Shown: piece after piece, positions 15,508 through 43,505 of the stretch
Layout of the letters: the number at the start of each line of letters is the position of its first letter
Position numbering within the stretch: the first letter of the stretch is position 1
NCBI GenBank assembly: GCA_902776195.1
Contig: CACYPF010000016.1
Span: 1-49,020 of the forward strand
Origin: an uncultured Prevotellaceae bacterium
GTDB taxonomy: Bacteria > Bacteroidota > Bacteroidia > Bacteroidales > Bacteroidaceae
Direction of reading: 5' to 3'
Length of the DNA stretch: 49,020 nucleotides
Translations under genes and position numbers: made by a program
The notes under the pieces: model-generated
Seen by the model: only the letters and a program-made list of their open reading frames with translations
Told to the model about the DNA's origin: nothing
Databases searched by the model: none

Positions 15508-15508
15508 T

Positions 15509-16936
15509 ATGAGACGCATCACATTTTTTCTTTTCACATGTTACCTGTCCCTGTGCTATTCCTTTGCAGAGGTCAGACTACCCCGTTTCTTCAGCGACAA
15601 CATGGTGTTGCAACAGCAAACAGAGTGTAACCTATGGGGGACTGCCGACAAAGGTAAGACTGTCAAGGTCACTACCTCATGGGACCAGAAGACTTATCAG
15701 GTGAAAACCGACAAGGACGGCAAGTTTGAGGTGAAGGTACAGACACCGGAGGCTGGCGGTCCTTATGAGATTACCTTCACAGAAATGTCCTCTCACCTCT
15801 CACCTCTCTCCACTTGCACCTTAGGCAACATCCTTATCGGTGAGGTATGGATCTGTGCGGGACAGTCGAATATGGAGATGCAGATGAAAGGGTTCAAGCA
15901 ACAACCCGTCGAGGGAACGACGGAAGAGCTGTTGCATTGTAAAGACTCCCAACTGCGACTATTCACCGTCAAGCGCCATGTATCACTGACTCCAAAATAC
16001 AATGTGACAGGACAATGGAACGAGGCAAATAGTGCCTCTGTCCGTGATTTCTCGGCAACAGCATACTATTTCGGTCGTGCCTTACGCTCCACCTTAGGCA
16101 TTCCCATAGGACTCATCGTCACCGCATGGGGCGGTTCCGCCTGTGAGGCATGGATGAAAGCCGACTGGTTGCGTGCCTTTCCGAAAGTAAAACAGACCAT
16201 TACGGTAGGAGATGTCTCGAAACTCCAGCAACGCTGTCCTACTGCTCTCTTCAACGGACAGCTGCATCCCCTCATCGGCTATACGATGAAAGGTGTTATC
16301 TGGTATCAGGGTGAGGATAACGTTCCTCGTTATGACTACTATGCCCCTCTGTTGAAAGCAATGGTTGAGGGTTGGCGTGAAGAATGGAAACAAGGTGAGT
16401 TTCCTTTCTACTATTGTCAGATAGCCCCATACGACTACTCCCTGATTGACTGGAAAGACAGTCAGTACCTGCGGGAACAACAGGCAAAGGCAGAGACGAT
16501 GATCAACAATGCCCGCATGGCAGTACTGATGGACGCTGGCTTAGAGTATGGCATCCATCCCCGTAAGAAGCGTCAGGCAGGTGAGCGGCTTGCCCTTCTC
16601 GCCCTTGCCAACACTTATGACATCAAAGGATTACCCGAGTTTGCCACCTATAAAGAGGTGACATTCCAGAACGACACCGCTGTCATCGCCTTCGACCGCT
16701 CCAAAGAATGGGTATATTTCGAGCATGGCACTACCTCCAACAACTTTGAGGTTGCAGGTGCTGACAAGGTATTCCATCCTGCCACGAAGGTATGGGTGTC
16801 ACGTAACAGAGTCTATGTCACCTGTGATGCCGTCAAACAACCTGCCGCCATCCGCTATGCTTTCAAAGACTGGGCTGACGGTGACCTGATGCATGACGGT
16901 CTGCCCGTTTCCTCTTTCCGAACAGATAACTGGTAA
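15509..16936 (+). CDS. Sialate O-acetylesterase-type SGNH carbohydrate esterase
   Basis: A 475-residue secreted esterase with a signal peptide ending near SFAEVRLP. A beta-sandwich domain (about 20-105) precedes an SGNH hydrolase domain with the nucleophile S120 (ICAGQSNMEMQM), oxyanion-type GGSACEAWM, YQGEDN, and the Asp342/His350 pair in MDAGLEYGIHPRKK. The family is annotated as sialate O-acetylesterase but includes enzymes that remove acetyl groups from plant polysaccharides, which fits the neighbouring rhamnosidases better than sialic acid does. The ATG lies 1 nt after the preceding stop codon. The loop just before the catalytic serine block is encoded by a 7-nt repeat (15790-15810). Confidence 0.88.
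   Translation: MRRITFFLFTCYLSLCYSFAEVRLPRFFSDNMVLQQQTECNLWGTADKGKTVKVTTSWDQKTYQVKTDKDGKFEVKVQTPEAGGPYEITFTEMSSHLSPLSTCTLGNILIGEVWICAGQSNMEMQMKGFKQQPVEGTTEELLHCKDSQLRLFTVKRHVSLTPKYNVTGQWNEANSASVRDFSATAYYFGRALRSTLGIPIGLIVTAWGGSACEAWMKADWLRAFPKVKQTITVGDVSKLQQRCPTALFNGQLHPLIGYTMKGVIWYQGEDNVPRYDYYAPLLKAMVEGWREEWKQGEFPFYYCQIAPYDYSLIDWKDSQYLREQQAKAETMINNARMAVLMDAGLEYGIHPRKKRQAGERLALLALANTYDIKGLPEFATYKEVTFQNDTAVIAFDRSKEWVYFEHGTTSNNFEVAGADKVFHPATKVWVSRNRVYVTCDAVKQPAAIRYAFKDWADGDLMHDGLPVSSFRTDNW
15790..15810 (+). repeat. 7-nt tandem repeat (CTCTCAC) inside the esterase gene
   Basis: Two CTCTCAC units plus CTCTCTC encode SSHLSPLST, directly before the LGNILIGEVW strand that leads to the catalytic serine. 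This looks like a surface-loop insertion. Confidence 0.8.
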
Positions 16937-16941
16937 CAACT

Positions 16942-19900
16942 ATGAAGAAGAACATCCTCCTCTCCATTTTCCTGGCGTTAGCCACGCTTATACAAGGAGC
17001 CGACTATATCCCCAAGGACTATGTGTGGACGACCCCCAGCAAGAATGCCAGTGAGTCGATGCCGTGCGGTGGTCATGACATCGGCATGAACGTATGGGTG
17101 GAGAAAGGTGACCTGCTCTTTTACATCGCACAGAGTGGATGGTTCGATGAGAACAATACCCTGTTGAAGGCTGGTCGTTGGAGACTGCACCTGGACGGGC
17201 AGCCGTTTGACGGGCAGGACTTCGAGCAACGCCTATGTCTTGATGAGGGTGCTGTATATATCAAAGGAAAAGGTGTCAATATCAGACTTTGGGTGGATGT
17301 CTACTCCCCCGTTGTCTTTGCGGAGATTGTTTCACAACAGGCAAGAGAGGCGACTCTCAGTTATGAGAGCTGGCGGTATAAGGACCGTCCTGTGACGAAG
17401 GCAGAGTGCCAGCAGTGCTCTTATAAGTGGGTTATACCCAAGGACTGTATGACGTTTGCAGACAGCATCCGTGCCTCCAAGAGTCGACTTACCTTCTATC
17501 ACCAGAACAGACAAGAGACAGTATTCGACTTTACCGTCTCTCGCGAACGCCTGGATGCCATCAAAGACCAGCTCTATAATCCCATCGGTCGTCTGAAAAT
17601 GGGTGGTATCATGCAGGCAGACGGTTTCTCGTATACCGGGACTACTGACGGCAGATATGCCTCAACAGACTTTCGTAGCTGGAACTTCCGACGGAAGAAG
17701 ATGAAAAAGAGCCTGGTGACTATCCAGTTATACACGGGTAAGGAACCTGCTCAGTCGGTCAACGCCACCGTGTCGAAGGAGAGAAGCAGTGCTTGGTGGC
17801 ATGGCTATTGGCAGCGTAGTTTCATAGAGACTGACTGCCAAAGACCAGAGGTGAGACAGATGGTCCGCAACTACGAACTGATGCGGTATCTGCTGGGATG
17901 TAATGCTTATGGGGAATGGCCGACGAAGTTTAATGGCGGACTTTTCACCTTCGACCCCGTCTATGTTGACTCCACGATGACCTTCACCCCTGACTATCGT
18001 AAGTGGGGAGGCGGTACGATGACGGCACAGAACCAACGCCTTGTCTACTGGCCCATGCTCAAGAGCGGTGACTATGATGTGCTGAGACCTCAGCTTGACA
18101 CTTATCTGCGTATGCTACCCAACGCCATCGCATGGTCACGCCACCATTGGGGACATGAAGGAGCCTGTTTCAGTGAACAGATAGAGAACTTCGGACTGCC
18201 TAATCCCGCTGAGTATGGAAAGCATAAGGAGGGGGACGACTGGGGAGTTGAGAAGAATAAATGGCTGGAATATGAGTGGGACACAGCCCTGGAGTTTGGG
18301 AAGATGTACCTTGATATGCTGCCATGGCATCCTGACTCGACGCTGAACAAATACCGTGTCCTCGTCGCAGAGCCGCTGCGCTTCTTTGTCAAGCACTATC
18401 CCGACCTGGTCATCTATCCCGGTTCAGGCTGTGAGACTTATAAGATGGCACGCAATCCCTCCAGTACTGTCGCTGCCCTGCGAGCTTTGAAGGATTATTT
18501 AAGTGAGACAGGAGCAGACGACTCCAACCTTCCCGACATTCCCCTTCGGGTGATTGACGGTGACACCTGTATTGCCCCCGCTGTCAGCTGGGAGCGCATC
18601 CAGAACACAGAGACGCCCCAACTCTATCCTGTCTTCCCTTGGCGTATCTATGGCTTAGGAAGACCACACCTCGATATTGCCCGCAATACTTATCAGAAAG
18701 ATCCGCACGCCATAGAGATGCGTAGTACAAAAGGATGGAAACAAGACAATATCTGGGCGGCATGTCTGGGGATGACCAACGAGGCGACACGTCTGAATAC
18801 GGAGAAGTTGAGCAACGGTCCCTATCGCTTCCCTGCCTTCTGGGATCCAGGTTTCGACTGGGCTCCTGACCATAACAGAGGGGGTGCCGGGATGATTGGA
18901 CTGCAAGAGATGCTGTTACAGGAAGATCTCGACCATAACCCAATCCTCTTTCCTGCATGGAACCATGAGTGGAACTGCCGGTTCCGTCTCCATATCTCCG
19001 GACAACGTTGTGTGGATGCGGAAATAAAAGACGGTAAGATCACTTATGCCATTGATGGTGTTGACTATTCTGATGACCTGCAAGAACCTCTGAAAGCGAA
19101 GTGGATAGGTGCCATTACCCGTCAAGACGCTCACCTGCCAGAAGGACGCAACTACACGGGTGCCAAATTGAAAGAGCCGGCGGTGAAAGAGGCTTGGAAG
19201 AAGGTGGACACACTGAGTCAGCGGAGTATCCTGCTGCGGAAGGACTTCCGCCTTAAAGGAAAAGTATTTAAAGCTACCGTCTCTATCGCTGGACTGGGTT
19301 TCTATGAGTTCTCTATCAACGGCAAGAAAGTGGGCGATGCCTCATTCACGCCATTATGGAGCGACTACGACAAAAGCATTTTCTATAACACCTACGATGT
19401 CACCTCTCACCTTAGACCTCAGACCTCAGACCTTAGACCAGATACCATCCAAGTACTTCTTGGCAACGGCTTCTACAACGAACAGGGACTTCGCTATGCC
19501 AAAATGAAGATTTCATTTGGTCCGCCCACCTTACTGTTCCGGATGCATATTGAATATCTCGACGGAAAGACAGAGGACATCGTCAGTGATGACCAATGGC
19601 AATGGGCATTGCCACCCATCACCTTCAACAGCATCTATGGCGGTGAGGATTATGATGCCCGGTTGGAAGGTGCCACAGTATGGCATCCTGCTGTCGTTCA
19701 GGAAGCACCAAAGGGCGTACTCCGCCCACAGATAGCCCAGCCTGTGAAAATCATGGAGCGCTATCCGGTGAAGGATACCATCCGGAAAGACTCCGTCTTA
19801 GTGCTCGACATGGGACAGAACCTCGCAGGTTTCCCCGAGATTACTGTCCAAGGACAAAGAGGACAACGGCTGAAACTGACTCCCGGGGAGACATTGACGA

Positions 19901-21294
19901 AAGAGGGATTGGTGAATCAGAAGCAAACGGGCCGCCCCCATTACTATTCGTATATATTAAAAGGTGGAAAAGATACTTGGCATCCCCGCTTCTCGTATTA
20001 TGGTTACCGTTATCTGCAAATAGAGGGTGATATCGACGTGTTGGAAAACATAGCGTCGTGCTTCGTGTATAACTCCGCACCGAAGACGGGTGACTTTGAA
20101 TGTTCCAATCCCCTCTTCAATGACGCTTACCGACTGATTGACCGTGCCATCCGCTCCAACTGGCAGGCTGTATGGACTGACTGCCCTCACCGGGAGAAAC
20201 TGGGATGGCTGGAACAAGACTGGCTGAATGGTGAGGGACTCTTAGCCAATTATGACTGCCGTGCAATGATGGAACAGACCATGCAGAACATCGCTGATGC
20301 GCAATATCCTAATGGTGCCTTGCCTGAGATAGCACCTAACTACGTTATATTCGAGGGCTCTTGGGCTCCTCCGTTCCTGGAGTCTCCCGAATGGGGAGGT
20401 GCTTTCATCGCCTTGCCTTTCCTCTATCAAGCGTTCTATGGTGACGATAAACTCATCACTCGCTATCGTCCGCAGATGAAACGCTATGTGGACTATCTTG
20501 CCACTCAGGACTCTTGCTATATTCTTCGCCAGGGACTGGGCGACTGGTACGATTACGGACCGGGGCGTGCGGGTTTTGCCCAGAACACACCAATGCCACT
20601 GGTATCAACGGCACACTACTATTGGTGGAACCGCCTGATGGGCGAGGCACGTGCAGACAGCATCAAGGCGGCATTCATCAAGGAGTTCTATCATCCTGCT
20701 ACCCACCAGTTTGCGACGGGCAGCCAGTGTGCTCAGGCAATAGCCCTTGAGATGGATCTTGTGCCAGAGGGTGACCGGCAGGCTGTATTGCAACAACTGA
20801 TTAACGACATCCACGCCCATGGCAACCGTCTGACGACTGGTGACGTTGGCAATCGCTATCTTTTCAATGCCCTTATCCATCATGGACAACAGGAACTGCT
20901 CTACAAGATGCTGAACCACTACGACGTACCGGGGTATGGTTATCAGATCAAACTCGGATATACCACGCTGACGGAACAATGGAACCCTGAGTTCGGTGCT
21001 TCGATGAACCATTTCATGATGGGACATCTGAACAACCTGCTCATACCTTATTTCTTAGGTATCTGGCGTGACGGAGAACATATCACCATAGCACCTCATC
21101 CCACAGGTGACCTCACATGGTGTCGTGGACAGATGGACGGCATCAAGGTGGACTGGCACCTGGAGAACGATACTTTCGTGCTGAACGCAGAGATTCCCGC
21201 TCATCGGGAGGCAACGGTCCGACTCCCTTATAGTGGACGGACACACATTGTCAGAGAGGGACAGCATATCATTACCGAACAAATCAAAAAATAA
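16942..21294 (+). CDS. Secreted two-enzyme fusion: DUF5703-like domain plus GH78 alpha-L-rhamnosidase
   Basis: A 1450-residue protein with a signal peptide (MKKNILLSIFLALATLIQG). Residues about 20-690 begin VWTTPSKNASESMPCGGHDIGMNVWVEKGDLLFYI in pattern, matching DUF5703-type proteins, which look like GH95-style beta-sandwich plus (alpha/alpha)6-barrel enzymes. Residues about 700-1450 form a complete GH78 rhamnosidase: substrate-binding jelly roll, VLLGNGFYN, DMGQNLAGF, likely acid E1085 in DCPHREKLGW and likely base E1345 in TTLTEQWNPE. Two full catalytic-size modules in one secreted chain suggest sequential cleavage of one side chain. The activity of the first module is not known to me. A 7-nt repeat (19401-19438) encodes a GH78 loop. 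It lies 5 nt after the esterase gene. Confidence 0.87.
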   Translation: MKKNILLSIFLALATLIQGADYIPKDYVWTTPSKNASESMPCGGHDIGMNVWVEKGDLLFYIAQSGWFDENNTLLKAGRWRLHLDGQPFDGQDFEQRLCLDEGAVYIKGKGVNIRLWVDVYSPVVFAEIVSQQAREATLSYESWRYKDRPVTKAECQQCSYKWVIPKDCMTFADSIRASKSRLTFYHQNRQETVFDFTVSRERLDAIKDQLYNPIGRLKMGGIMQADGFSYTGTTDGRYASTDFRSWNFRRKKMKKSLVTIQLYTGKEPAQSVNATVSKERSSAWWHGYWQRSFIETDCQRPEVRQMVRNYELMRYLLGCNAYGEWPTKFNGGLFTFDPVYVDSTMTFTPDYRKWGGGTMTAQNQRLVYWPMLKSGDYDVLRPQLDTYLRMLPNAIAWSRHHWGHEGACFSEQIENFGLPNPAEYGKHKEGDDWGVEKNKWLEYEWDTALEFGKMYLDMLPWHPDSTLNKYRVLVAEPLRFFVKHYPDLVIYPGSGCETYKMARNPSSTVAALRALKDYLSETGADDSNLPDIPLRVIDGDTCIAPAVSWERIQNTETPQLYPVFPWRIYGLGRPHLDIARNTYQKDPHAIEMRSTKGWKQDNIWAACLGMTNEATRLNTEKLSNGPYRFPAFWDPGFDWAPDHNRGGAGMIGLQEMLLQEDLDHNPILFPAWNHEWNCRFRLHISGQRCVDAEIKDGKITYAIDGVDYSDDLQEPLKAKWIGAITRQDAHLPEGRNYTGAKLKEPAVKEAWKKVDTLSQRSILLRKDFRLKGKVFKATVSIAGLGFYEFSINGKKVGDASFTPLWSDYDKSIFYNTYDVTSHLRPQTSDLRPDTIQVLLGNGFYNEQGLRYAKMKISFGPPTLLFRMHIEYLDGKTEDIVSDDQWQWALPPITFNSIYGGEDYDARLEGATVWHPAVVQEAPKGVLRPQIAQPVKIMERYPVKDTIRKDSVLVLDMGQNLAGFPEITVQGQRGQRLKLTPGETLTKEGLVNQKQTGRPHYYSYILKGGKDTWHPRFSYYGYRYLQIEGDIDVLENIASCFVYNSAPKTGDFECSNPLFNDAYRLIDRAIRSNWQAVWTDCPHREKLGWLEQDWLNGEGLLANYDCRAMMEQTMQNIADAQYPNGALPEIAPNYVIFEGSWAPPFLESPEWGGAFIALPFLYQAFYGDDKLITRYRPQMKRYVDYLATQDSCYILRQGLGDWYDYGPGRAGFAQNTPMPLVSTAHYYWWNRLMGEARADSIKAAFIKEFYHPATHQFATGSQCAQAIALEMDLVPEGDRQAVLQQLINDIHAHGNRLTTGDVGNRYLFNALIHHGQQELLYKMLNHYDVPGYGYQIKLGYTTLTEQWNPEFGASMNHFMMGHLNNLLIPYFLGIWRDGEHITIAPHPTGDLTWCRGQMDGIKVDWHLENDTFVLNAEIPAHREATVRLPYSGRTHIVREGQHIITEQIKK
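19401..19438 (+). repeat. 7-nt tandem repeat (CTTAGAC/CTCAGAC) inside the GH78 module
   Basis: After CACCTCTCAC come CTTAGAC, CTCAGAC, CTCAGAC and CTTAGAC, encoding TSHLRPQTSDLRPD between YDV and IQVLLGNG. CTTAGAC contains TAG; the unit whose phase would make TAG an in-frame stop (19418-19424) has CAG instead. Confidence 0.85.
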
Positions 21295-21301
21295 CGAATA
21301 T

Positions 21302-24160
21302 ATGAATACTTGGAAAGCGAATCTGGAGGAAACAAAGCAACGATACATCAACTGGTGGAACCACAAAGGGATTATTCTGAATATGTGGGAACACTTCCAA
21401 GAAGGTGTGAAACCACATGCGGATATCCCCATGCCACCAGCACCACGGGACTTAAACCAGAAATGGTTTGACCCACAGTGGCGTGCCGACTATCTGGACT
21501 GGTACGTGGCACACTCTTCCTTGATGGCTGATATGCTGCCTGTTGCCAACACACAATTGGGACCGGGTTCCCTTGCCGCTATTCTGGGCGGTGTGTTTGA
21601 GGGAGGAGAGGATACTATCTGGATTCACCCTAACCCTCATTACACAGATGATATCGTCTTTGACCCCAACCACCCGAATTACCTGCTTCACAAGGAACTA
21701 CTCAAGGCATGCAAACAAAAGGCACAAGGACATTACTATGTGGGTATGCCAGACCTGATGGAAGGACTTGATGTCCTCGCTGCCATGAAGGGTACCGATC
21801 AAGTGTTACTCGACACGGTGATGCAACCAGAAGTGCTGGAGCATCAGATGCAACAGATTAACGACATCTATTTCCAAGTATTCGATGAGCTCTACGATAT
21901 TATCCGGGAGGGTGACGAAATGGCATTCTGCTATTTCTCCTCATGGGCTCCCGGCAAGATGTCAAAACTGCAAAGCGACATCTCCACGATGATCAGTGTC
22001 GACGACTACCGCCGCTTCGTACAACCGTTTATCCGTGAGCAATGCCAGAAGATAGATTATACGCTCTATCACCTTGACGGTGTGGGTGCCATGCACCATT
22101 TGGATGCCTTACTGGAAATCAAGGAGCTGAATGCCATCCAATGGACACCCGGTGTAGGCGAGCCACAAGGAGGCAGTCCTAAATGGTATGACCTCTATAA
22201 GAAGATCCTTGCCCATGGCAAGAGTATCATGGCATGCTGGGTAACCCTCGACGAACTGCGTCCCCTACTCGACAACATTGGCGGTGATGGTGTGCATCTG
22301 GAGATGGACTTCCACAATGAACGGGAGGTGGAACAAGCTATGCGCATCATTGAGGAATACCAGAGCCACGATGAGGTTGACGATGAGGTTGCGGAGATTA
22401 TCCGAATCATCGAAACTCCCGTCAACTCTCAACCCTCAACTCTCAACTCTCACCCCTTACCTCTTAACCCCGACAGGATTCTTGTACTCGACGGTGCCAT
22501 GGGTACGATGATACAACAATATCAATTGCGTGAAGAGGATTTCCGTGGGGCACGCTTTGCCAATCACAGCTACGACCTGAAAGGCTGTAATGACGTGCTG
22601 TCACTGACCTGTCCGTTCATCGTTCGTGACATCCATCGCAAATACTTAGAGGCAGGAGCCGATATCATCGAAACCAACACCTTCAACGCCCAGCGTATCT
22701 CTATGGGAGACTTCGGCATGCAGGAATATTGCCGTGAGATGAATCTTGCCGCTGTCAGAATAGCACGTGAGGTGGCGGAGGAGTATTCAACACCAAAGAA
22801 GCCACGGTATGTTGTGGGCAGTATAGGACCGACCAGTCACACGCTCGTAAGTGAAGAGGGAAAAGTGAAGAGGGAAAAATTTGCTACCGCTCTTCGTGAA
22901 GCCTATGCCGAACAGATTCAAGCCCTAAAGGAAGGTGGTGTTAATGCCTTACTGATTGAGACCATCTTTGATGTGGAGAATGCCCGCATCGCCATCGAGA
23001 CTGCCCGGCATATTGCTCCTGACCTTCCTATCATGTTGAGTTTCTCTGTCTCTACCCCCGACGGGCATAATATGATGGGACAGGACATTTGCGAATTTAT
23101 CAATTCTCTCAACTCTCAACGCTCAACTCTCAACGCTATATACTCCATTGGTATCAACTGTCTCTCTGACGTACAACAGATGACCCCACTTATTTGCCAG
23201 CTTGCCCAGTATGGTACGAGAGTAAGTCTCTATCCTAATGCGGGAATACCCGATGCAAAAGGACAATATACCAAGACACCAGAGAGTCTGCTTGCTGACG
23301 TTTGGTCATTATTAGAGAATCACTGTCTGAATATCATCGGTGGCTGCTGTGGCACGACAGATGCCCATATCCGCCAGATGGCACAAGCGGTAGAACCTGT
23401 CAAAGGACTGTACCTTTCTCCACTTATTCCTGGGGGAAGCCCTAGGTCATCTAGTATACCTAGTACTCCTAGTAATACTAGTGTTCCTAGTAATACTAGT
23501 TCTCCCAGTGCCCCTGCCCCATCCTCCCCGGAGGAACGCCTTTATCATGCCATCCTTGAAGGCAAGAGCAATGATGCCGCCACTGCAACACAGGAGGCAA
23601 TTGTTCAGGATATAGCCCCGCAAGACCTTATCAACGGGCAGATGATTCGTGCTATGAGTGAGGTGGGCAGAAGGTTCCAAGACGGTAAGGCATTTGTACC
23701 CCAATTGCTGATGGCAGGACGTGCCATGAAAGCTGCATTGGAAATCCTGAAGCCCATGATGGCAGGTACCGCAAGTACCTCGTTAGGGAAGGTAGTCATT
23801 GGTACTGTCAAAGGTGATCTCCATGACATCGGCAAGAACCTGGTAGCCTCCATGTTGGAGGGATGTGGCTTCGAGGTGGTCAATATCGGTATTGATGTTT
23901 CCGCAGAGACGTTCATCCAAGCTGTCAAGGAGAACCAGCCAGACATCCTTTGCATGAGTGCATTACTCACTACAACGATGGGCTATATGAAAGAAGTCAT
24001 CGATGCCTTAGAGGCAGCTGGCATCCGCAACCAAGTGAAAGTCATGGTTGGTGGTGCCCCCGTCACTCAGGGCTTTGCCGATGAGATAGGTGCCGATGGT
24101 TATAGCGACAATGCAAACTCCGCCGTTACCGTGGCGAAACAATTATTGGGGAAGCTTTAG
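21302..24160 (+). CDS. Corrinoid methyltransferase fusion: UroD-type, homocysteine S-methyltransferase and B12-binding domains
   Basis: I place the start at ATG 21302 (MNTWKANLEETKQR), 7 nt after the GH78 stop; the longer frame needs a GTG inside that gene. The 952-residue product has no signal peptide. Residues about 1-365 form a UroD/CmuA-like methyltransferase with YHLDG where MtaA has a zinc-binding H-x-C. Residues 391-700 are a homocysteine S-methyltransferase (LDGAMGTMIQQYQL) with zinc cysteines C620, C682 and C683 (GGCCGTT). Residues 745-952 are the cobalamin cap and B12-binding domain with H841 in DLHDIGKN. Compared with MetH, the methyl-folate and reactivation domains are absent. Predicted reaction: an unidentified methyl donor to Co(I)-corrinoid to homocysteine, giving methionine. 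Four short repeat tracts lie in it, two of them at domain linkers. Confidence 0.88.
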   Translation: MNTWKANLEETKQRYINWWNHKGIILNMWEHFQEGVKPHADIPMPPAPRDLNQKWFDPQWRADYLDWYVAHSSLMADMLPVANTQLGPGSLAAILGGVFEGGEDTIWIHPNPHYTDDIVFDPNHPNYLLHKELLKACKQKAQGHYYVGMPDLMEGLDVLAAMKGTDQVLLDTVMQPEVLEHQMQQINDIYFQVFDELYDIIREGDEMAFCYFSSWAPGKMSKLQSDISTMISVDDYRRFVQPFIREQCQKIDYTLYHLDGVGAMHHLDALLEIKELNAIQWTPGVGEPQGGSPKWYDLYKKILAHGKSIMACWVTLDELRPLLDNIGGDGVHLEMDFHNEREVEQAMRIIEEYQSHDEVDDEVAEIIRIIETPVNSQPSTLNSHPLPLNPDRILVLDGAMGTMIQQYQLREEDFRGARFANHSYDLKGCNDVLSLTCPFIVRDIHRKYLEAGADIIETNTFNAQRISMGDFGMQEYCREMNLAAVRIAREVAEEYSTPKKPRYVVGSIGPTSHTLVSEEGKVKREKFATALREAYAEQIQALKEGGVNALLIETIFDVENARIAIETARHIAPDLPIMLSFSVSTPDGHNMMGQDICEFINSLNSQRSTLNAIYSIGINCLSDVQQMTPLICQLAQYGTRVSLYPNAGIPDAKGQYTKTPESLLADVWSLLENHCLNIIGGCCGTTDAHIRQMAQAVEPVKGLYLSPLIPGGSPRSSSIPSTPSNTSVPSNTSSPSAPAPSSPEERLYHAILEGKSNDAATATQEAIVQDIAPQDLINGQMIRAMSEVGRRFQDGKAFVPQLLMAGRAMKAALEILKPMMAGTASTSLGKVVIGTVKGDLHDIGKNLVASMLEGCGFEVVNIGIDVSAETFIQAVKENQPDILCMSALLTTTMGYMKEVIDALEAAGIRNQVKVMVGGAPVTQGFADEIGADGYSDNANSAVTVAKQLLGKL
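22424..22470 (+). repeat. 7-nt tandem repeat forming the UroD/homocysteine-MT linker
   Basis: Units AACTCTC, AACCCTC, AACTCTC and AACTCTC, then the decaying ACCCCTT and ACCTCTT, encode VNSQPSTLNSHPLPLNP exactly between the UroD-type domain and RILVLDGAMGT of the homocysteine methyltransferase domain. Confidence 0.9.
22851..22889 (+). repeat. Direct 14-nt repeat plus TTTGCTACCG tail in the methyltransferase gene
   Basis: GTGAAGAGGGAAAA occurs twice in tandem (22851-22864 and 22865-22878) and is followed by ATTTGCTACCG, encoding SEEGKVKREKFAT. The same TTTGCTACCG tail borders GTGAA-type repeats at 33548-33588 and, reversed, at 47852-47886. Confidence 0.8.
23104..23138 (+). repeat. 7-nt tandem repeat inside the homocysteine-MT domain
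   Basis: AACTCTC, AACGCTC, AACTCTC and AACGCTA (23111-23138), preceded by a TTCTCTC-like unit, encode NSLNSQRSTLNA just before the strand IYSIGINC carrying zinc ligand C620. Confidence 0.85.
23442..23513 (+). repeat. 9-nt CTAG array encoding a Pro/Ser/Thr linker
   Basis: CTAG occurs seven times with exact 9-nt spacing, at 23442, 23451, 23460, 23469, 23478, 23487 and 23496, then decays into CCAGTGCCC. The 9-nt unit keeps the frame and encodes a (P/T)-S-x tripeptide repeat that links the homocysteine methyltransferase domain to the B12 cap domain. Confidence 0.95.
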
Positions 24161-24796
24161 TTTCCGCTTGTAACATTGCTTGAAATCACAGAGTCCGCAG
24201 GTGTAATCCAATCTGCGGACTTTTTCTCCTAATCCGATGATGCCACTGACACTTTTGATGGGTACCATCAGGGAGGAGTCCGTAAGATGTACGCCACAGG
24301 TATGCCCTTTAAATAAAGGGAAGAGTAATTGTTGTTGGGAGACATGCCATCCACAATAGCCTGGAGAGAACCGGTTGGTATGCTGCCAACCTAATTTATC
24401 AATATTCTCCTGTAGGGTGACTTCCATCTGGTCCGCACAATGCTCAGCTATAACGGAGCCGAGGGCATCAGCGATATAGACACGTACCATATCACCTTGC
24501 TCTTTGAGTCGCTGCTGATATGCCTCAAACTCTGTTCCACTGGTACACACAAAAAGGGCATAAGCCTCGGAGCCTCGCAATTGACGCTGGATAATCTTAC
24601 CCATGCTGAAGGCTGGTTGCTCCTTCACGACCTGATAACAGAAACGAGGGCGCAACCATGTACGTACATCCTCCATGACAACAGACACCTCTCGCAGGGT
24701 TGCCATGTCAGGTTCTGTACCATGATATCCCATCTGATCGTAGAGATCATGGGGAGTTATTCCTAAATCGTCAAAAGAAAGTGTCTTCTCCGTCAT
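24143..24796 (-). CDS. Stand-alone MetH-type corrinoid reactivation protein
   Basis: A 217-residue cytoplasmic protein resembling the S-adenosylmethionine-binding activation domain of B12-dependent methionine synthase. The RxxPGY signature appears as NRFSPGYCGWH (near residues 142-152), and MVPIKSVSGIIGLG resembles the P-x(3)-VSG segment. Such domains reductively remethylate inactive Co(II)-corrinoid. The C-terminus carries CGLCDFKQCYKRK, a C-x2-C-x4-C cluster that could hold a metal or Fe-S centre. Its last 18 bp overlap the end of the converging corrinoid gene, whose protein lacks exactly this domain, so the two are likely partners. It overlaps the upstream methyltransferase gene by ATGA. 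Confidence 0.85.
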   Translation of the reverse strand: MTEKTLSFDDLGITPHDLYDQMGYHGTEPDMATLREVSVVMEDVRTWLRPRFCYQVVKEQPAFSMGKIIQRQLRGSEAYALFVCTSGTEFEAYQQRLKEQGDMVRVYIADALGSVIAEHCADQMEVTLQENIDKLGWQHTNRFSPGYCGWHVSQQQLLFPLFKGHTCGVHLTDSSLMVPIKSVSGIIGLGEKVRRLDYTCGLCDFKQCYKRKLKLPQ

Positions 24797-25803
24797 GACT
24801 GTTCATTCCATTCCTTGAGCGCACCAAAGAAAGCATCTACATTTGCCTGTGGCGTATGAGGAGGGGTGTCGCATCCACTGGAAAGCACAAAGTTAGGATA
24901 ATCCCTCATCTTCTCCAACAAGTCAATCACTGTCTGGCGCATCAGTTCCGGAGTACCGTCCTTAAAGACTGAGACAGGGTCAATATTCCCCATGGCAAGT
25001 GCGGTGGCAGGAACATCCCGGATAACCTCTTCCATCAGACATTTATTGCCAAAATGATAAGCGGCGGCACCTGTGCTCACCATCGCCTTGGTACAATGCC
25101 CCGTATTGCCGCAGTTATGAAGGATAACCAGGAAATCGTCTGACTGCACCTCATCAACAATATAGCGGACATAGTCGGAAGAGAATGTCTTGCAGTCCTC
25201 ATCAGACAACAAGCCCGCGGCAGGTTCTGCCATCATCACACCCCCTACCCCAGTTCTTTTCAATGCCTGACAGTATTTCTTAATAAACATCGTACATTTA
25301 CTCAATAGCTGATGCGCAGCATCTGGGTTCTCATAAATCAGCATCATCAACTCTGACATATCATAAAGACGACCGGCAAGCGAGTACGGACCGATACATC
25401 CGGCAAAAACAGGACGGTCGGTAATCGCACGTGCCGCAAGAAGGTTTGCCTTCAGATAGGCAGGAATACGTCCTTGGGAAAGAGAAGGTATCTCCAACTT
25501 ATTGATATCTTCCGCATTGGACAGGCAATGACCAACGACCGCAGGCACAGCAATGTCGCTGAAAGCAATCTCTGCACCAAAAGCCTCCGCCTCAGTAGTC
25601 AGGTCCATAATGGTAGCCGCAGCTACCGCAGGATAATGCTTTGTCAAGGTCTGTACCGCTTCATAGTGGACACGTCCGTTACTGACAGCCTGCCGCACGG
25701 TATTACCATTCATCTCTATTCCCGGATGGGTCATGACAGGCAGTGCTGTGACCTCCTTTCGTTGGATGATATCTGTCATCCATTGCCTCATATTCTGCTT
25801 CAT
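24793..25803 (-). CDS. MtaA-like (UroD superfamily) zinc corrinoid methyltransferase
   Basis: A 336-residue cytoplasmic protein of the MtaA/MtbA group. The zinc triad of that group is visible as H229-x-C231 (ILHNCGNTG) and C311 (SSGCDTPPHTP). MtaA-type enzymes move a methyl group between a corrinoid protein and a thiol. I chose ATG 25803 (MKQNMRQWMTDI) because the longer frame begins at TTG 25842 and because AGAAAGG lies a few bases upstream as a ribosome site. It is translationally coupled to the reactivation protein. Bacteria lack the CoM pathway of methanogens, so the thiol acceptor is probably homocysteine or folate-linked. It might instead deliver methyl groups to the corrinoid domain of the 21302 gene. 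Confidence 0.85.
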   Translation of the reverse strand: MKQNMRQWMTDIIQRKEVTALPVMTHPGIEMNGNTVRQAVSNGRVHYEAVQTLTKHYPAVAAATIMDLTTEAEAFGAEIAFSDIAVPAVVGHCLSNAEDINKLEIPSLSQGRIPAYLKANLLAARAITDRPVFAGCIGPYSLAGRLYDMSELMMLIYENPDAAHQLLSKCTMFIKKYCQALKRTGVGGVMMAEPAAGLLSDEDCKTFSSDYVRYIVDEVQSDDFLVILHNCGNTGHCTKAMVSTGAAAYHFGNKCLMEEVIRDVPATALAMGNIDPVSVFKDGTPELMRQTVIDLLEKMRDYPNFVLSSGCDTPPHTPQANVDAFFGALKEWNEQS

Positions 25804-25894
25804 AAGCCTTTCTGATTTTAATAAAGACGATAAAACATTCAATTTGTCACTATCTGTTGTGGTGACATTTCAGGGGTTTTCACGTCTTTAATAT
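25804..25894. promoter_or_regulatory. Divergent intergenic region with TGTCAC/GTGACA dyad
   Basis: This 91-bp gap lies between the MtaA-like gene and the 25895 operon. It holds TGTCAC at 25845-25850 and GTGACA at 25862-25867, a perfect 6-bp dyad with 11-nt spacing that could bind a regulator. I saw no TAnnTTTG promoter match and the gap is too short for a cobalamin riboswitch. Confidence 0.35.
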
Positions 25895-27430
25895 ATGAAA
25901 TATTTACTAACCTCTTTACTTTTTTTATTAGCCACCCATCTATCCCATGCAGGGGAGATTATCGTAAACCCTGGTGAGAGCCTGCATGAGGCTTTACGGA
26001 AGGCACGTGAGTGGCGACGCACCAATGACCCGCAATGTCAGGGTGGTATTACCATTACGCTGAAGGCAGGACGTTATTACATGAACGAACCGTTGTTCAT
26101 CCGTCCTGAAGACAGTGGCACCGAAGATTCACCACTAGTCATTCGTGGTGAGTATAGGTCTGTCATCTGTGGGGATGCCCCTCAACAACACACACAGCTA
26201 TTCCCCCAAGAGGGGATGGAACGGATGATTGACTTCAACACGTCAGACAGGACCATCACTATCCCAACCCCTCCGAAAGAGGTTCTGGAACAATGCGAAG
26301 CCACACTCTCACCTCTCACCTCTCACCTCTCAACCCTTGAGATGGTGGTCCATCAGCGTTGGGCTATTGCCATCCTTCGTATCAAGGACATGAAAGTAAT
26401 AGGCGACAAGACCATTGTCTCTTTTATGGAACCAGAGAGTCGCTTGGAATTTGAGCATCCGTGGCCTCAACCTGTCATTGGAGGAGAACGTGGGAACAGC
26501 TCTTTCCTTTTAAGGAAAACAGAGCAACGTGACGGTATTGAACAGTTAATCATCGTTGATGGAGCAAACTATGTAACCTTCAAGGATTTTAAGATTGAGA
26601 AAACCTGCTGGAACCGTCCGTTGCATAAGGGACATGTTACGCTACAGGGCGGATTCCCACTCATCGACGCCTATAAACTAAAAGAGAAAGAAGGACTGCC
26701 TTGGGACAGTGGACTGGAGAATCAGGCGTGGGTGGAACGCCCCGTCAGTGCTGTCACGGTCAGGAATGCGCATCATGTAGATTTCGACGGTATCCTCTTC
26801 CATCATCTTGCAGCTACTGCCCTTGACTATGTCGACAATGTAAGCGATTGTACTGTAATGAGCTGTGGATTCGAGCACATCGGCGGAACAGCTGTCATGG
26901 CTGGTTCTTTTGCCGAGAGTCCTATGGAGGTACATCGTCCATATACCCATCTTGCCGAACGGTGTAAAAACATCAAGATACACAGCAACAACTTCTTATG
27001 GTGCAGTGAAGAGGACTGGGGTGCTGTCGCCATCGGCTTTGGCTATGTACGCGACTGCACCATCAGCAACAACCTGGTTGCCAATACCAATTACAGCGGT
27101 ATCTGTATCGGCTGGGGATGGACACCTCTTGACACAGGGATGAAGAATAACCATATCATCAATAACAAGGTGAGCGACTATGCCCGACAACTCTATGACG
27201 CAGGAGGTATCTACACCTTGTCTAACCAGCCTGGCTCCAGTATCAGGGATAATGAGATTTCTCAACCCTACCCCGCTCCCTATGCTACCAACTACCGAGG
27301 GTTCTGCATCTACCTCGATGCACGGACTGACGGGTTTACGATAGAAAATAATAAAACTGACGACCGCTTGATACGCCGTGATGAGATAGGCGATAATCAT
27401 CCTGGTCCTAACCTTATATTCAAACAATGA
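25895..27430 (+). CDS. Secreted right-handed parallel beta-helix protein, possible GH141-like enzyme
   Basis: A 511-residue protein with a signal peptide (MKYLLTSLLFLLATHLSHAG). The start EIIVNPGESLHEALRKAREW followed by a GRYYMNEPL strand, and repeated N-N-x-I/V turns (SNNLVANTNYSGICIGWGWT, KNNHIINNKVSDYARQL, GIYTLSNQPGSSIRDNEIS), indicate a right-handed parallel beta-helix. This fold occurs in pectate lyases, GH28, GH120 and GH141. The YSGICIGWGW segment reminds me of GH141-type proteins, a family with an alpha-L-fucosidase from the rhamnogalacturonan II system, but this is a weak assignment. It overlaps the GH31 gene by ATGA. A 7-nt repeat lies at 26306-26333. Confidence 0.75.
   Translation: MKYLLTSLLFLLATHLSHAGEIIVNPGESLHEALRKAREWRRTNDPQCQGGITITLKAGRYYMNEPLFIRPEDSGTEDSPLVIRGEYRSVICGDAPQQHTQLFPQEGMERMIDFNTSDRTITIPTPPKEVLEQCEATLSPLTSHLSTLEMVVHQRWAIAILRIKDMKVIGDKTIVSFMEPESRLEFEHPWPQPVIGGERGNSSFLLRKTEQRDGIEQLIIVDGANYVTFKDFKIEKTCWNRPLHKGHVTLQGGFPLIDAYKLKEKEGLPWDSGLENQAWVERPVSAVTVRNAHHVDFDGILFHHLAATALDYVDNVSDCTVMSCGFEHIGGTAVMAGSFAESPMEVHRPYTHLAERCKNIKIHSNNFLWCSEEDWGAVAIGFGYVRDCTISNNLVANTNYSGICIGWGWTPLDTGMKNNHIINNKVSDYARQLYDAGGIYTLSNQPGSSIRDNEISQPYPAPYATNYRGFCIYLDARTDGFTIENNKTDDRLIRRDEIGDNHPGPNLIFKQ
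26306..26333 (+). repeat. Four 7-nt units (CTCTCAC) in the beta-helix gene
   Basis: CTCTCAC at 26306, 26313 and 26320, then CTCTCAA at 26327, encode [10 protein letters not shown] between KEVLEQCEAT and LEMVVHQRW. This is the cleanest CTCTCAC array in the window. Confidence 0.92.
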
Positions 27431-29673
27431 AACAAACCAACTACCATCTTTTCGACTTCATGGACTTCGACCCCACACTGCAACGGGATGAAGCCCTATG
27501 GAAAGCCTATGCACCTACGAGAATAGTAGAGCAAGACGGTGATATTGTCATTACCATTCCCTATCAGCGACAGAAGCACCAAGAGGACATGGCTCCCGAC
27601 ATGAATACTCCTATGCAATGCTATGACCTGATTATCCGTGCCTATGAGCCTAATGTCATACGGTTGTTCACAACGATGACGGAGGATGTCATGACAGAAT
27701 GTGACGAGATGCTGCAAATGGCACCGGAGGTCAAGCGGAAGCCCTTGCACTATGCAGGAAGCGATATTATCGCCACAGACGGTACAAAACTTGCCACTAT
27801 CGATCTCTCCGCACCTTGTCTCGACCCTTGGAGTGACCTGTTACCCGCACCACAGCCTGCTCCTTTCATCACCTTCTATCCTGATGGTGACACCACGAAA
27901 CCGGTTGCCCTCAGTGACGACCATTTTTCCCCGCCACGTTATGATGCGCTGCCATTAGGTTTCTGCTCTGTCGATAGTGGTAATGAACGGGCAACAATTT
28001 CCTTTAAATGCGATGCTGACGAGCACTTTGTGGGAACAGGAGAGCGTTTCCGCAAAATGGATTTAAGTGGACAGACCTTTCAATTGAAGAACCAAGACGG
28101 ACAGGGGGTTAATAACCGGCGCTGTTATAAGAATATCCCCTTCTATCTTTCCAGTCGGATGTATGGTGTCTTTTTCCATACCTCAGACTATTGCAAATTA
28201 TCACTTGCCGACCATAGTTCAAGAAGTGTGCAGTTCCTTAATGACCATGCCACCCTTGATGTTTTCCTGATAGGAGGTCGCACACCTGAGGAGATTCTCA
28301 AAGGATACCGTATGCTGACGGGCTTCCCTACCATGCCCCCACTCTGGAGTTTTGGCATCTGGATGAGTCGCATGACCTATTTCTCCGCTGATGAGGTGGA
28401 AGAGATTTGCGACCGTCTGCGCAAGGAGCACTATCCTTGTGATGTCATTCATCTGGATACTGGCTGGTTCCGCACCGACTGGCTCTGTGAATGGAAATTC
28501 AACCCTGAGCGTTTCCCAGACCCCAAGGCATTCATCAACCGGTTGAAAGAGCAGGGCTTCAAAGTATCGCTCTGGCAGTTACCCTATGTGGCACAAGGTG
28601 CAGAGCAGTTGAAAGAGGCAAAGGAGAATCACTACATCAGTCAACCTGTCAAAGAAGAAGACACCTCAACAGGTGGTGCGTCAAACTTCTCCACCCTCGA
28701 CTATGCTGGGACTATTGACTTTACCTATCCCAAAGCAACAGACTGGTATAAATATCAGTTGCTGAAGCCTTTGCTTGACATGGGTGTAAAATGTATCAAG
28801 ACCGACTTCGGCGAGAACATACACATGGACCATCAGTATCATGCCTCGTCTCCTGAGCGGCTGAATAACATCTATGCTTTGCTTTATCAGAAAGCAGCTT
28901 ACGAAGTGACCCGTGAAGTCACTGGCGATGGAATCATCTGGGCACGTGCCGGCTGGGCTGGCTGCCAGCGTTATCCGCTCCACTGGGGAGGCGACAGCGA
29001 AAGTTCATGGGCTGGTTTGGCAGGTTCCTTGAAAGGTGGACTCCACTTAGGACTCTCCGGTTTTGCTTTCTGGAGTCATGACGTACCAGGATTCCATTCC
29101 ACCCCTGACTTCATGAACTCACCTCTTGATGAACAGGTATATGTCCGTTGGACCCAATTCGGGGTCTTCACCTCCCACATGCGCTATCATGGCACTTGCA
29201 AACGGGAGCCATGGCACTACCCTAACATCGCACCTATTATCAAACGCTGGTGGAAACTCCGTTACCGTTTGATACCTTATATCATAGAGCAGTCAGAACA
29301 TGCCTGCAGGAGCGGACTGCCCATTGTGCAAGCACTGCTCTTCCATCATCCCCATGACAGACAAGTATGGCATATCGATGATGAGTATTACTTTGGCAAT
29401 GAGTTCCTGGTATGTCCTGTCATGAGTGCGGACAATCACCGGGACATCTACCTGCCAGAGGGACAGTGGGTCAACTTCCTGACAGGTGAGCGACTGGAGG
29501 GCGGACGCTGGTATTACCATGTAGAAGTACCTCTTGACCAGATGCCTGTCTTTGTACGTCCTGACGCTCAGATTAAGATGTATCCACATGAGGTAGACTC
29601 TACCGACGACATGGATCTCTCGCAATCTACTAATATTAGAATCACACACGACTTTAAAGGCATTGAACTATGA
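27427..29673 (+). CDS. GH31 alpha-xylosidase-like enzyme, cytoplasmic
   Basis: A 748-residue GH31 enzyme with no signal peptide. The beta-sandwich N-terminal region contains FVGTGERFRKMDLSGQ; the (beta/alpha)8 barrel has PPLWSFGIWMSRMTYFS, HLDTGWFRTDW, the nucleophile D460 in KTDFGENI and the acid/base D523 in HWGGDSESSW. These contexts are like YicI/XylS alpha-xylosidases rather than alpha-glucosidases. It is coupled by ATGA to both the beta-helix gene and the symporter gene, so it probably cleaves a small alpha-xyloside imported by that symporter. Rhamnogalacturonan II contains alpha-linked 2-O-methyl-xylose, which would tie this gene to the nearby methyltransfer module, but that is inference. 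Confidence 0.9.
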   Translation: MKQTNYHLFDFMDFDPTLQRDEALWKAYAPTRIVEQDGDIVITIPYQRQKHQEDMAPDMNTPMQCYDLIIRAYEPNVIRLFTTMTEDVMTECDEMLQMAPEVKRKPLHYAGSDIIATDGTKLATIDLSAPCLDPWSDLLPAPQPAPFITFYPDGDTTKPVALSDDHFSPPRYDALPLGFCSVDSGNERATISFKCDADEHFVGTGERFRKMDLSGQTFQLKNQDGQGVNNRRCYKNIPFYLSSRMYGVFFHTSDYCKLSLADHSSRSVQFLNDHATLDVFLIGGRTPEEILKGYRMLTGFPTMPPLWSFGIWMSRMTYFSADEVEEICDRLRKEHYPCDVIHLDTGWFRTDWLCEWKFNPERFPDPKAFINRLKEQGFKVSLWQLPYVAQGAEQLKEAKENHYISQPVKEEDTSTGGASNFSTLDYAGTIDFTYPKATDWYKYQLLKPLLDMGVKCIKTDFGENIHMDHQYHASSPERLNNIYALLYQKAAYEVTREVTGDGIIWARAGWAGCQRYPLHWGGDSESSWAGLAGSLKGGLHLGLSGFAFWSHDVPGFHSTPDFMNSPLDEQVYVRWTQFGVFTSHMRYHGTCKREPWHYPNIAPIIKRWWKLRYRLIPYIIEQSEHACRSGLPIVQALLFHHPHDRQVWHIDDEYYFGNEFLVCPVMSADNHRDIYLPEGQWVNFLTGERLEGGRWYYHVEVPLDQMPVFVRPDAQIKMYPHEVDSTDDMDLSQSTNIRITHDFKGIEL

Positions 29674-31229
29674 ATACACATTACATGCAATCCTTAGACT
29701 GGATTATCCTCGCCATCTATTTTGTCATCCTGCTTGCCATCGGTATATGGGCAAGTAGTAAAAGGAAGAAAGAAGGCTCCCTATTTCTCGCAGAGCACTC
29801 CCTGCGTTGGCACCATATCGGTTTCTCCATGTGGGGCACCAATGTTGGTCCGTCGATGTTGATAGCCTCAGCATCGGCAGGATTCACGACAGGTATCGTC
29901 AGTGGTAACTACGCCTGGTATGCTTTCGTATTTATCGCCTTGCTATCTTTTGTCTTTGCTCCCCGTTATCTTGGAGCCAACATCAGTACACTGCCTGAGT
30001 TTATGGGACTCCGTTTCGGTCAGAGCACCCGTAATATATTAGCATGGTATACCATTATCACGATTATCATCTCCTGGCTCGCCCTGACACTCTTCGCAGG
30101 AGGTATCTTGATACGTCAGGTATTCGACATTCCCATGTGGATGTCAGCCCTTGTACTGCTTTTAATCTCCGCTTTCTTCACCATGCTGGGTGGACTGAAA
30201 GCGGTAGCTTATACTAATGTCTATCAGATGATACTGCTCATCGTCGTCTCCCTCATCCTTGTCATTGTCGGTCTCGACCGTGTGGGTGGCATCTCTGCAT
30301 TAGCCGCGAAGGTTCCCGCAGACTATTGGGTGATGTTCAAGCCAAACTCTGACGAGGCATTCCCATGGCTACCTATCCTCTTAGGATATCCCGTCATGGG
30401 TGTATGGTTCTGGTGTACCGACCAAAGCATGGTACAACCTGTTCTCGCTGCAAAGAACCTCCGTGAGGGACAATTAGGTACTAATTTCACGGGATGGTTG
30501 AAAATTCTGGATGTCGCGCTGTACATTCTTCCTGGTATCATCTGCTTCGCCCTCTTCCCTACTTTGCAGAATCCTGACGAGGCATATCTGACGATGGTGG
30601 AGAACCTCTTCCCTGTCGGTATGGTAGGCTTGGTATTCGCTGTCTTGACGGCTTGTCTGGTATCCACCATCGGCTCTGCGTTAAACGCTTTAAGTACCGT
30701 TTTCACAATGGACGTGTATGTCAAGAATTTCAAACCCGGTGCCCCACAATGGGAGATTAACCTTGTAGGGCGTTTAGTCACGATCATCGGTGCTGTCCTT
30801 GCCATCGTCCTCACCATTGCCATTGACGCTATCAAGGGACTTAACCTCTTCAATGTCTTCCAGAGTGTCCTTGGTTTCATCGCACCACCAATGGCATCCG
30901 TATTCCTTCTGGGTATTTTCTGGAAACGGACCACCACACGTGCCGCCAACTTTGCGTTGACCGTAGGTACCGCATTCTGTCTTATTGTCGGTATACTCTA
31001 CCTATGGCCACCTGAATGGCTTCAGTTAGCATGGCCTCATTTCATGCTATTGTCTTTTGAACTGTTTGTCATTCTTGTCGTCGCTATGGTTATCATCTCC
31101 CTCACTGATCGTGACAAGACGGAGTACGAAATACCGGCTCCCATCCATGAGAGCCAGTCGAAACTCGCCGTTGGTCTGTGGATAGCCTTGGCTATCGTGA
31201 TGATAGGACTATACATCTATTTCAATTAG
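29670..31229 (+). CDS. Sodium:solute symporter (SSS family, SGLT-like)
   Basis: A 519-residue inner-membrane protein with about 14 hydrophobic helices. SSS/SGLT features include LAEHSLRWHHIGFSMWGTN, ASASAGFTTGI, MLGGLKAVAYTNVYQM and ATLQNPDEAYLTMV-like loops. SGLT-type members import monosaccharides with Na+. The overlap with the GH31 gene (ATGA) suggests it imports a xylose-containing disaccharide or a monosaccharide from the same pathway. It differs clearly from the other symporter at 7062-8579. It is the last gene of its operon; a 208-bp palindrome lies about 335 nt downstream. Confidence 0.9.
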   Translation: MNTHYMQSLDWIILAIYFVILLAIGIWASSKRKKEGSLFLAEHSLRWHHIGFSMWGTNVGPSMLIASASAGFTTGIVSGNYAWYAFVFIALLSFVFAPRYLGANISTLPEFMGLRFGQSTRNILAWYTIITIIISWLALTLFAGGILIRQVFDIPMWMSALVLLLISAFFTMLGGLKAVAYTNVYQMILLIVVSLILVIVGLDRVGGISALAAKVPADYWVMFKPNSDEAFPWLPILLGYPVMGVWFWCTDQSMVQPVLAAKNLREGQLGTNFTGWLKILDVALYILPGIICFALFPTLQNPDEAYLTMVENLFPVGMVGLVFAVLTACLVSTIGSALNALSTVFTMDVYVKNFKPGAPQWEINLVGRLVTIIGAVLAIVLTIAIDAIKGLNLFNVFQSVLGFIAPPMASVFLLGIFWKRTTTRAANFALTVGTAFCLIVGILYLWPPEWLQLAWPHFMLLSFELFVILVVAMVIISLTDRDKTEYEIPAPIHESQSKLAVGLWIALAIVMIGLYIYFN

Positions 31230-34366: not shown

Positions 34367-34368
34367 GA

Positions 34369-38184: not shown

Positions 38185-38187
38185 GTT

Positions 38188-43504: not shown

Positions 43505-43505
43505 A

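Follow-up and report, generated by a model that had tools for sequence, protein, structure and literature searches.

A three-part corrinoid methyltransferase fusion in a Prevotellaceae pectin locus: a possible anaerobic O-demethylase of methylated sugars

Introduction

What would a corrinoid methyltransferase that carries its own homocysteine domain do amid genes for pectin breakdown? The question is raised by an open reading frame (ORF) at positions 21302-24160 (+) of a 49,020-nucleotide stretch of DNA (contig CACYPF010000016.1, hereafter the window) from an uncultured Prevotellaceae bacterium. The encoded fusion protein of 952 amino acids joins an N-terminal domain (N-domain), a homocysteine S-methyltransferase (Hcy-MT) domain, a B12 cap and a B12-binding domain. 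We propose, with a probability of about one half, that this single-chain three-part corrinoid methyltransferase works anaerobically as the O-demethylase of a methylated sugar, 2-O-methyl-xylose being the probable one, and that it feeds the methyl group into methionine. The proposal is built on domains, catalytic residues, gene association, co-occurrence and split versions of the system, from which the reaction steps, the donor and the direction are inferred.

Domain organisation of the fusion protein

The frame is free of stops over its 952 codons, and the choice of start codon is consistent with that of relatives, which also have M-x-T-W-K at or near the N-terminus. Three Pfam matches, all exceeding the cut-off, define the larger part of the chain. 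The Hcy-MT domain (S-methyl_trans, PF02574, 281.7 bits) covers residues 394-697 (22481-23392, +) and includes C620, C682 and C683; the B12 cap (B12-binding_2, PF02607) covers residues 744-817 (23531-23752, +); and the B12-binding domain (PF02310) covers residues 829-942 (23786-24127, +), with H841 in the motif DLHDIGKN. A preliminary description, made from the DNA letters, had proposed this domain order and these residues, and both are borne out. In a 52-row alignment, which includes five rows without an Hcy-MT domain, H841 is invariant and the three cysteines are kept in at least 90% of the rows. The zinc cysteines are retained in 74 of 74 complete fusions, and DLHDIGKN in 80 of 82 fused ORFs, the remaining two being truncated by contig ends. 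The B12 cap and the base-off histidine motif of MtxC corrinoid proteins are both present. A full-length predicted model has a mean predicted local distance difference test score (pLDDT) of 76.9.

By comparison with NCBIfam models the Hcy-MT part is nearest to MetH and the B12 part to MtgC and MtbC, the latter two each below cut-off, and the MetH model TIGR02082 aligns with parts of the fusion only (478 bits; cut-off 1010.85). No pterin-binding Pfam match was found anywhere in the 952 residues, including residues 1-365, which the preliminary description had singled out as the place where such a domain could turn up; its view that a methyl-folate domain is missing is upheld. It had also stated that a reactivation domain is missing. 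This is true of the chain, which has no Pfam match to an activation domain; however, a separate gene at 24143-24796 (-) encodes a 217-residue MetH activation-domain protein (PF02965) with a CxxC-C tail, a predicted corrinoid reductive reactivase. All 54 homologues of this protein have the pattern C..C.{3,5}C close to their C-terminal end; two contigs, equated by their length and the place of the gene, are counted twice in this number (L064 = L070, L065 = L083). The two genes are convergent and overlap by 18 bases (24143-24160).

The N-domain and its relation to the UroD superfamily

The N-domain (residues 1-355; 21302-22366, +) is predicted to be a divergent UroD-superfamily methyltransferase that forms the donor side, the O-demethylase. 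The UroD-like N-terminus of the preliminary description found no direct support. Residues 1-390 gave no Pfam match above cut-off, and a Pfam search of residues 1-388 to E 10 gave a single chance match (E 0.2). Neither a PDB sequence search nor a profile search with the domain found anything, TIGR01463 (MtaA/CmuA) and PF01208 (URO-D) did not match it, and hhalign against the neighbouring UroD protein returned a probability of 0.4%. Direct homology to UroD thus failed in Pfam, NCBIfam, PDB sequence search and hhalign. Rotavirus_VP1, VirJ and other chance Pfam matches were dismissed as below cut-off, and a faint profile match to CdmB (E 1.3) is not significant.

An indirect link does exist. URO-D was touched by two of 16 members of the N-domain family (best E 0.027), and a 12-row profile of the family (A5) retrieves L205 (E 6.1e-9) and L207 (E 9.5e-7). 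Against URO-D (cut-off 23.9) these two reach 57.5 and 47.3 bits; L202, L203 and L206, also retrieved by this profile, lie below the URO-D cut-off. Membership of the N-domain in the broad UroD superfamily is therefore supported indirectly, through the intermediates L205 and L207 only, and to this extent the earlier assignment stands.

Residues His257-Leu-Asp259 (codons 22070-22078, +) line up with the place where UroD-type thiol methyltransferases carry His-x-Cys. In a joint alignment these columns are H-x-C in nine of 13 comparison UroD-type proteins; the other four have H-x-H, F-x-K, H-x-G and, in L190, H-x-D. Within the N-domain family H-x-D is found in all 12 rows of profile A5, and the motif HLDG in all 82 fused ORFs (from 79 of the 80 loci read, described below, plus L056-L058). 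The UroD-type, MtaA-like protein encoded next to the fusion (24793-25842, -; likely start near 25803; PF01208, 184 bits) has the motif HNCGN...SSGC (His-Cys-Cys), which is kept in 45 of 45 homologues. According to the portion of PMC10418091 consulted, UroD-superfamily S-methyltransferases bind zinc through His-Cys-Cys, and in O-methyltransferases the cysteines are replaced by carboxylates or non-ligands; zinc is absent from some enzymes of corrinoid O-demethylase type (excerpt of PMC13222342). The N-domain site, with a carboxylate in place of Cys, resembles that of corrinoid O-demethylase systems. Because H-x-D and His-Cys-Cys fall on opposite sides of the rule in PMC10418091, the N-domain appears to be on the O-methyl side, and the separate UroD protein on the thiol side.

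In the predicted model the blocks of the N-domain have pLDDT values of 34-88, and strands and helices alternate over residues 220-353, which would be consistent with a barrel. Distant relatives of the N-domain (25-26% identity) with H-x-D are encoded at L067:9243-10337, L068:6303-7403 and L069:2768-3850; the first adjoins GH106 and DUF5703 genes (GH, glycoside hydrolase family), the other two membrane-protein-like genes. These relatives are possibly demethylases for other methylated sugars.

Distribution and origin of the fusion

A scan of genome contigs gave 314 relatives, the best 80 of which were read, a choice that favours close relatives. Among these 80 loci, 71 have the order N-domain, Hcy-MT, B12 (N-HMT-B12), two are N-HMT forms ended by the contig, six are N-B12 forms and one was uncalled; L103 was lost from the calls to an ORF on the opposite strand. 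The three-domain form occurs in Prevotella sp. tf2-5 (L075) and tc2-28 (L118) and in Marseilla massiliensis An824 (L122), and the N-B12 form in, among others, Phocaeicola vulgatus ATCC 8482 (L134). The fusion is present in nine of 36 same-genus genomes. Across 393 genomes of the order the N-domain was found in 15, ten of which have a close version, fused in four and stand-alone (354-355 residues) in six. In a phylum-wide sample at E 1e-10 nothing matched beyond the own genome (1 of 395), so the spread is narrow or patchy.

Elsewhere in the order the parts are encoded separately. In L050 separate genes encode a GH31, the N-domain, a sodium:solute symporter (SSF), a corrinoid protein, a UroD protein, an activation protein and a GH141; L052 has a stand-alone Hcy-MT plus an activation protein; and in L053 the corrinoid protein is 72% identical to its fused counterpart. 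A Gfo/Idh/MocA-type oxidoreductase gene lies between the stand-alone N-domain and SSF genes in L052 (10630-11679, by Pfam) and L053 (7610-8674, by likeness).

In a tree drawn with a midpoint root, in which row L052 is very long, Hcy-MT domains sampled from 28 fusions group as a single clade separate from 20 Bacteroidales MetH proteins (support 99/99). Repeated acquisition of Hcy-MT domains had come into question as those of some fusions are just 39-41% identical to that of the window, but was rejected on the single clade. The pattern fits one event in which a domain of MetH type was placed between a donor methyltransferase and a corrinoid protein of MtxC type; loss of the Hcy-MT domain in the Bacteroides line is the alternative. 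The preliminary description had compared the protein to CmuA with an inserted Hcy-MT. The layout agrees with this, given the six N-B12 loci and the Hcy-MT clade, but membership of CmuA itself is not supported, since the N-domain has no direct match to the MtaA/CmuA model and its site is H-x-D, unlike the His-Cys-Cys of the neighbouring UroD protein. A record titled as a Paenibacillus metagenome-assembled genome (L138) contains a Bacteroidales-type module with a fucose-isomerase-like gene and is probably mislabelled.

Partner genes and co-occurrence

Downstream of the fusion and its two opposite-strand neighbours lie a GH141 gene with a signal-peptide-like start (25895-27430, +; a BT_1002 homologue), a GH31 gene that is alpha-xylosidase-like and has no signal-peptide-like start (27427-29673, +), and an SSF gene (29670-31229, +), with 4-base overlaps between GH141 and GH31 and between GH31 and SSF. 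The flanks fetched for the best 80 of 314 loci contain GH31 in 49, GH141 in 49, the activation protein in 47, UroD in 46 and SSF in 45. Where at least 6 kb is available on both sides of the fused ORF, GH31 is near in 35 of 46 loci, and of the 27 cases in which the GH31 gene adjoins the fusion gene, eight show a 4-base overlap of the two. By a simple hydropathy test 38 of 48 GH141 copies and two of 49 GH31 copies begin with a hydrophobic stretch resembling a signal peptide. The earlier view, in which the fusion closes an operon of secreted pectin enzymes, agrees with the window; however, the partners kept more widely are the downstream GH141-GH31-SSF genes, whose GH31 has no signal-peptide-like start.

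Association extends beyond neighbourhood. GH31 is present in nine of nine same-genus fusion genomes compared with 10 of 36 same-genus genomes overall. In a set of 60 genomes 11 are GH31-positive, 11 N-domain-positive and 10 both (P 1.6e-9); among the 393 genomes there are 10 GH31 and 10 close N-domain positives, eight of them common to both (P 1.5e-13), GH31 being scored on the two best first-look candidates per genome with a cut at E 1e-150. These P values ignore kinship and, in part, linkage, and are indicative only. In four of the nine fusion genomes, G009, G027, G032 and G033, the GH141-GH31-SSF operon and the fusion are on different contigs, and co-occurrence is therefore more than adjacency. 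In G041 the N-domain lies at the start of a contig, and GH31 gave no match.

Pentose and fucose genes stand beside some copies. In L120 an L-fucose isomerase gene immediately precedes the fusion, and by sequence reading a fucose isomerase flanks the module in L138 and a transketolase in L137 and L145. Such genes would fit both products of a xylose-fucose disaccharide. In L117 (6661-9988) the fusion is preceded by split transketolase genes and an FGGY sugar kinase.

Methyl donor and proposed mechanism

The association with GH141, GH31 and SSF makes it more likely that the donor is a methylated product of rhamnogalacturonan II (RG-II). GH141 BT1002 is reported to free 2-O-methyl-D-xylose-alpha1,3-L-fucose from RG-II side chain A (PMC10154630, in part), and in the sections of PMC7939467 consulted Bacteroides thetaiotaomicron cuts 21 of 22 RG-II linkages, the exception being that between 2-O-methyl-xylose and fucose. 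In the proposed mechanism the secreted GH141 would release 2-O-methyl-xylose-alpha1,3-fucose from side chain A, the SSF transporter would import this methylated disaccharide and the GH31 would split it in the cytoplasm. A secreted GH141, a transporter and, acting after them, a GH31 that lacks a signal peptide would be the set required to complete breakdown of the disaccharide. The freed 2-O-methyl-xylose would then be demethylated by the fusion, the methyl group being the last obstacle to ordinary xylose use. The N-domain, through its H-x-D site, would pass the methyl group of an ether to Co(I) in the B12 domain of the same chain, which would swing to the homocysteine domain and form methionine with no need for methyl-folate. 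The neighbouring PF02965 protein would return oxidised cobalt to Co(I).

Several points weigh against this proposal. We know of no corrinoid enzyme that cleaves an unactivated methyl ether of a sugar, and the N-domain is modelled with low confidence. The GH31 scores 480 bits against the NCBIfam alpha-xylosidase model (cut-off 606), and its Thr-Gly aligns with Cys-Phe of YicI. GH31 is missing nearby in 11 of the 46 well-flanked loci, five of which adjoin other genes of the window's RG-II-type set; G031 and G243 have GH31 and SSF and G335 has GH31, all without a close N-domain, although the G335 contig ends just behind GH31. The own genome contains a second GH141 (L158:6513-8240), 32-36% identical to that of the window, and two GH141 copies occur in each of the 10 same-genus genomes with the GH31. 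With such a paralogue present the window GH141 need not have the activity of BT1002, and GH141 is reported to include a xylanase as well. There is also the case of B. thetaiotaomicron itself, which, to judge from its Mta corrinoid proteins BT_0340, BT_0342 and BT_0343 and from BT_0339, apparently carries the N-B12 form. The solved GH31 5f7c, presumably BT_0339, is 99.2% identical to the L145 copy over 361 residues. BT0339 is listed as an alpha-xylosidase in the part of PMC10434189 consulted. Wild-type B. thetaiotaomicron grown on RG-II oligosaccharide accumulates 2-O-Me-Xyl-alpha1,3-Fuc (PMC7939467, in part), and because of this, if it has the module, the module could be off, import of the disaccharide could fail or the substrate could be another one.

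A donor other than a sugar, whether a methylamine, a betaine, methanol set free from pectin methyl esters or some further small methyl compound, seems unlikely. The B12 domain is nearest to the MtgC and MtbC models, BT_0340, BT_0342 and BT_0343 are termed Mta corrinoid proteins of the methylamine/trimethylamine methyltransferase type in the portion of PMC8941943 consulted, where they are not counted among the proteins captured by a B12 probe, and the fetched flanks of L109, L111 (a short contig) and L120 contain no GH31. However, the N-domain matches in Pfam and NCBIfam include no model of a methylamine or methanol methyltransferase, and the distribution of GH31, GH141 and SSF follows that of the N-domain from genome to genome, also where they lie on separate contigs.

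The same enzyme logic could serve another RG-II methyl sugar, chiefly 2-O-methyl-L-fucose of side chain B, or the uncut methylated disaccharide, which we regard as quite unlikely. The window is a broad RG-II-type locus, the isomerase genes beside the fusion in L120 and, apparently, the module in L138 would suit 2-O-methyl-fucose, this sugar is released by GH139 BT0984 (PMC10154630, in part) and the label 2-O-Me-Fuc is defined in the legend of a figure on B. thetaiotaomicron spent medium (excerpt of PMC7939467). However, free fucose suffices to explain the fucose genes, and the tight partners GH141 and GH31 predict 2-O-methyl-xylose and fucose as products.

Methyl acceptor

Is homocysteine the acceptor, and does the fusion replace other routes to methionine? 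In the own genome replacement of MetH was rejected, as MetH (918 residues, L156:7767-10523), methylenetetrahydrofolate reductase (MTHFR) and a separate PF02965 activation protein of 262 residues on another contig (L155:7167-7955) are all present; no MetE match was found there. The methionine synthase of this genome is itself split, with MetH and its activation domain separately encoded. In M. massiliensis An824 the sole PF02574 match is the fusion, and this draft assembly has no match to MetE (PF01717) or MTHFR (PF02219), models that matched in 10 and 11, respectively, of 14 known genomes used as positive controls. The fusion may be the only methionine synthase of this strain, unless the strain needs methionine. 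The absence of MetH from Marseilla is weak evidence, because some fusion-free same-genus genomes (for example G010, G012, G026 and G029) have no MetH match either. Homocysteine may also not be the sole acceptor, a thiol-type UroD protein being kept beside many fusions.

In P. vulgatus and P. sartorii, which have the N-B12 form, the sole PF02574 match lies in a 928-residue, MetH-sized frame, and for this reason the acceptor there may be the substrate of the UroD protein. Extended to the fusion itself, this would mean that the N-domain and B12 domain demethylate the donor mainly for the thiol substrate of the UroD protein or for folate, with the Hcy-MT domain as an optional side outlet gained in one lineage. 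Such an arrangement is in keeping with the N-B12 forms (6 of the best 80 of 314), with the separate MetH-sized frame that is the sole PF02574 match also in the L138 genome, with UroD of intact His-Cys-Cys in 46 of those 80 loci and with the confinement of UroD matches of the window protein's strength to fusion-bearing genomes of the genus (seven of nine); the same search also gave a HemE-like match in G030 and five weak matches below cut-off. We nevertheless consider it improbable, since in G009 and G027 the fusion and the activation protein occur with no UroD match, the zinc cysteines are kept in all complete fusions and Marseilla has no other methionine synthase match.

Comparison with known systems

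By sequence the protein would work like a CmuA-type donor-corrinoid fusion plus half a MetH, and it is neither MetH nor, by model, CmuA. CmuA, which acts as methyltransferase I (MTI) and corrinoid protein (PMC13222342, in part), likewise has a donor domain and a corrinoid domain in one chain, exactly the layout of the N-B12 relatives. The fusion differs in its extra Hcy-MT domain, in H-x-D for H-x-C, in the missing halomethane context and in an N-domain that the MtaA/CmuA model does not match. With MetH it shares the Hcy-MT with zinc cysteines, the B12 cap and the B12 domain, and an activation-domain protein is encoded adjacent to it; unlike MetH it lacks pterin and activation domains, has an extra N-domain, has a B12 domain nearer to MtgC/MtbC and occurs in a genome with its own MetH and separate activation protein. 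The O-demethylases MtvB, OdmB, VdmB and MtoB and the CdmBCA system similarly combine a UroD-superfamily MTI, a corrinoid protein and an acceptor enzyme (sections of PMC13222342), whereas in the fusion the predicted acceptor is homocysteine, the parts are joined and the context is pectin sugars and not methoxyaromatics. The core methionine synthases MesA-MesD also convert homocysteine to methionine without methyl-folate, but those are MetE-related and up to 386 residues long (PMC7857596, in part), and the Hcy-MT of the fusion is of MetH type and comes with a donor domain in the chain. A description of such a system was not found in open-licence papers.

Significance

The fate of RG-II 2-O-methyl sugars in the gut gives the locus its interest, since in B. 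thetaiotaomicron one linkage stays uncut and the methylated disaccharide builds up (PMC7939467, as far as consulted). If the proposal is true, anaerobic demethylation would parallel, without oxygen, the P450 route by which marine bacteria treat 6-O-methyl-galactose (excerpt of PMC10033563), and if it is tied to methionine, fibre breakdown would be joined to B12 and sulfur-amino-acid metabolism. Taken jointly, a single polypeptide would make methionine from the methyl ethers of sugars in plant cell walls, needing neither oxygen nor folate; the GH31 associated with it would be the missing 2-O-methyl-alpha-xylosidase for the one RG-II linkage uncut by B. thetaiotaomicron; the N-domain would found a family of corrinoid sugar O-demethylases, the distant 25-26% relatives beside other sugar genes serving other methylated sugars; and in M. 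massiliensis the fusion would perhaps be the only methionine synthase. We offer this combined reading as tentative, with the odds leaning against all its parts holding together.

Other genes of the window

Upstream of the fusion, at 9629-21294 (+), same-strand genes encode a GH2, a GH106, an SASA esterase and a DUF5703+GH78 protein. The rest of the RG-II-type locus (31793-47699, -) comprises a GH2, a GH78+BNR protein, an apiosidase-like protein, a GH95, a protein of 453 residues and a BT_1020-like protein. A search of the window against Rfam, B12 riboswitches included, gave 0 matches at gathering scores. The 453-residue protein (42152-43513, -) has no Pfam family, and copies of it are present in G027 (L161, 63% identical) and in L052 (45%).

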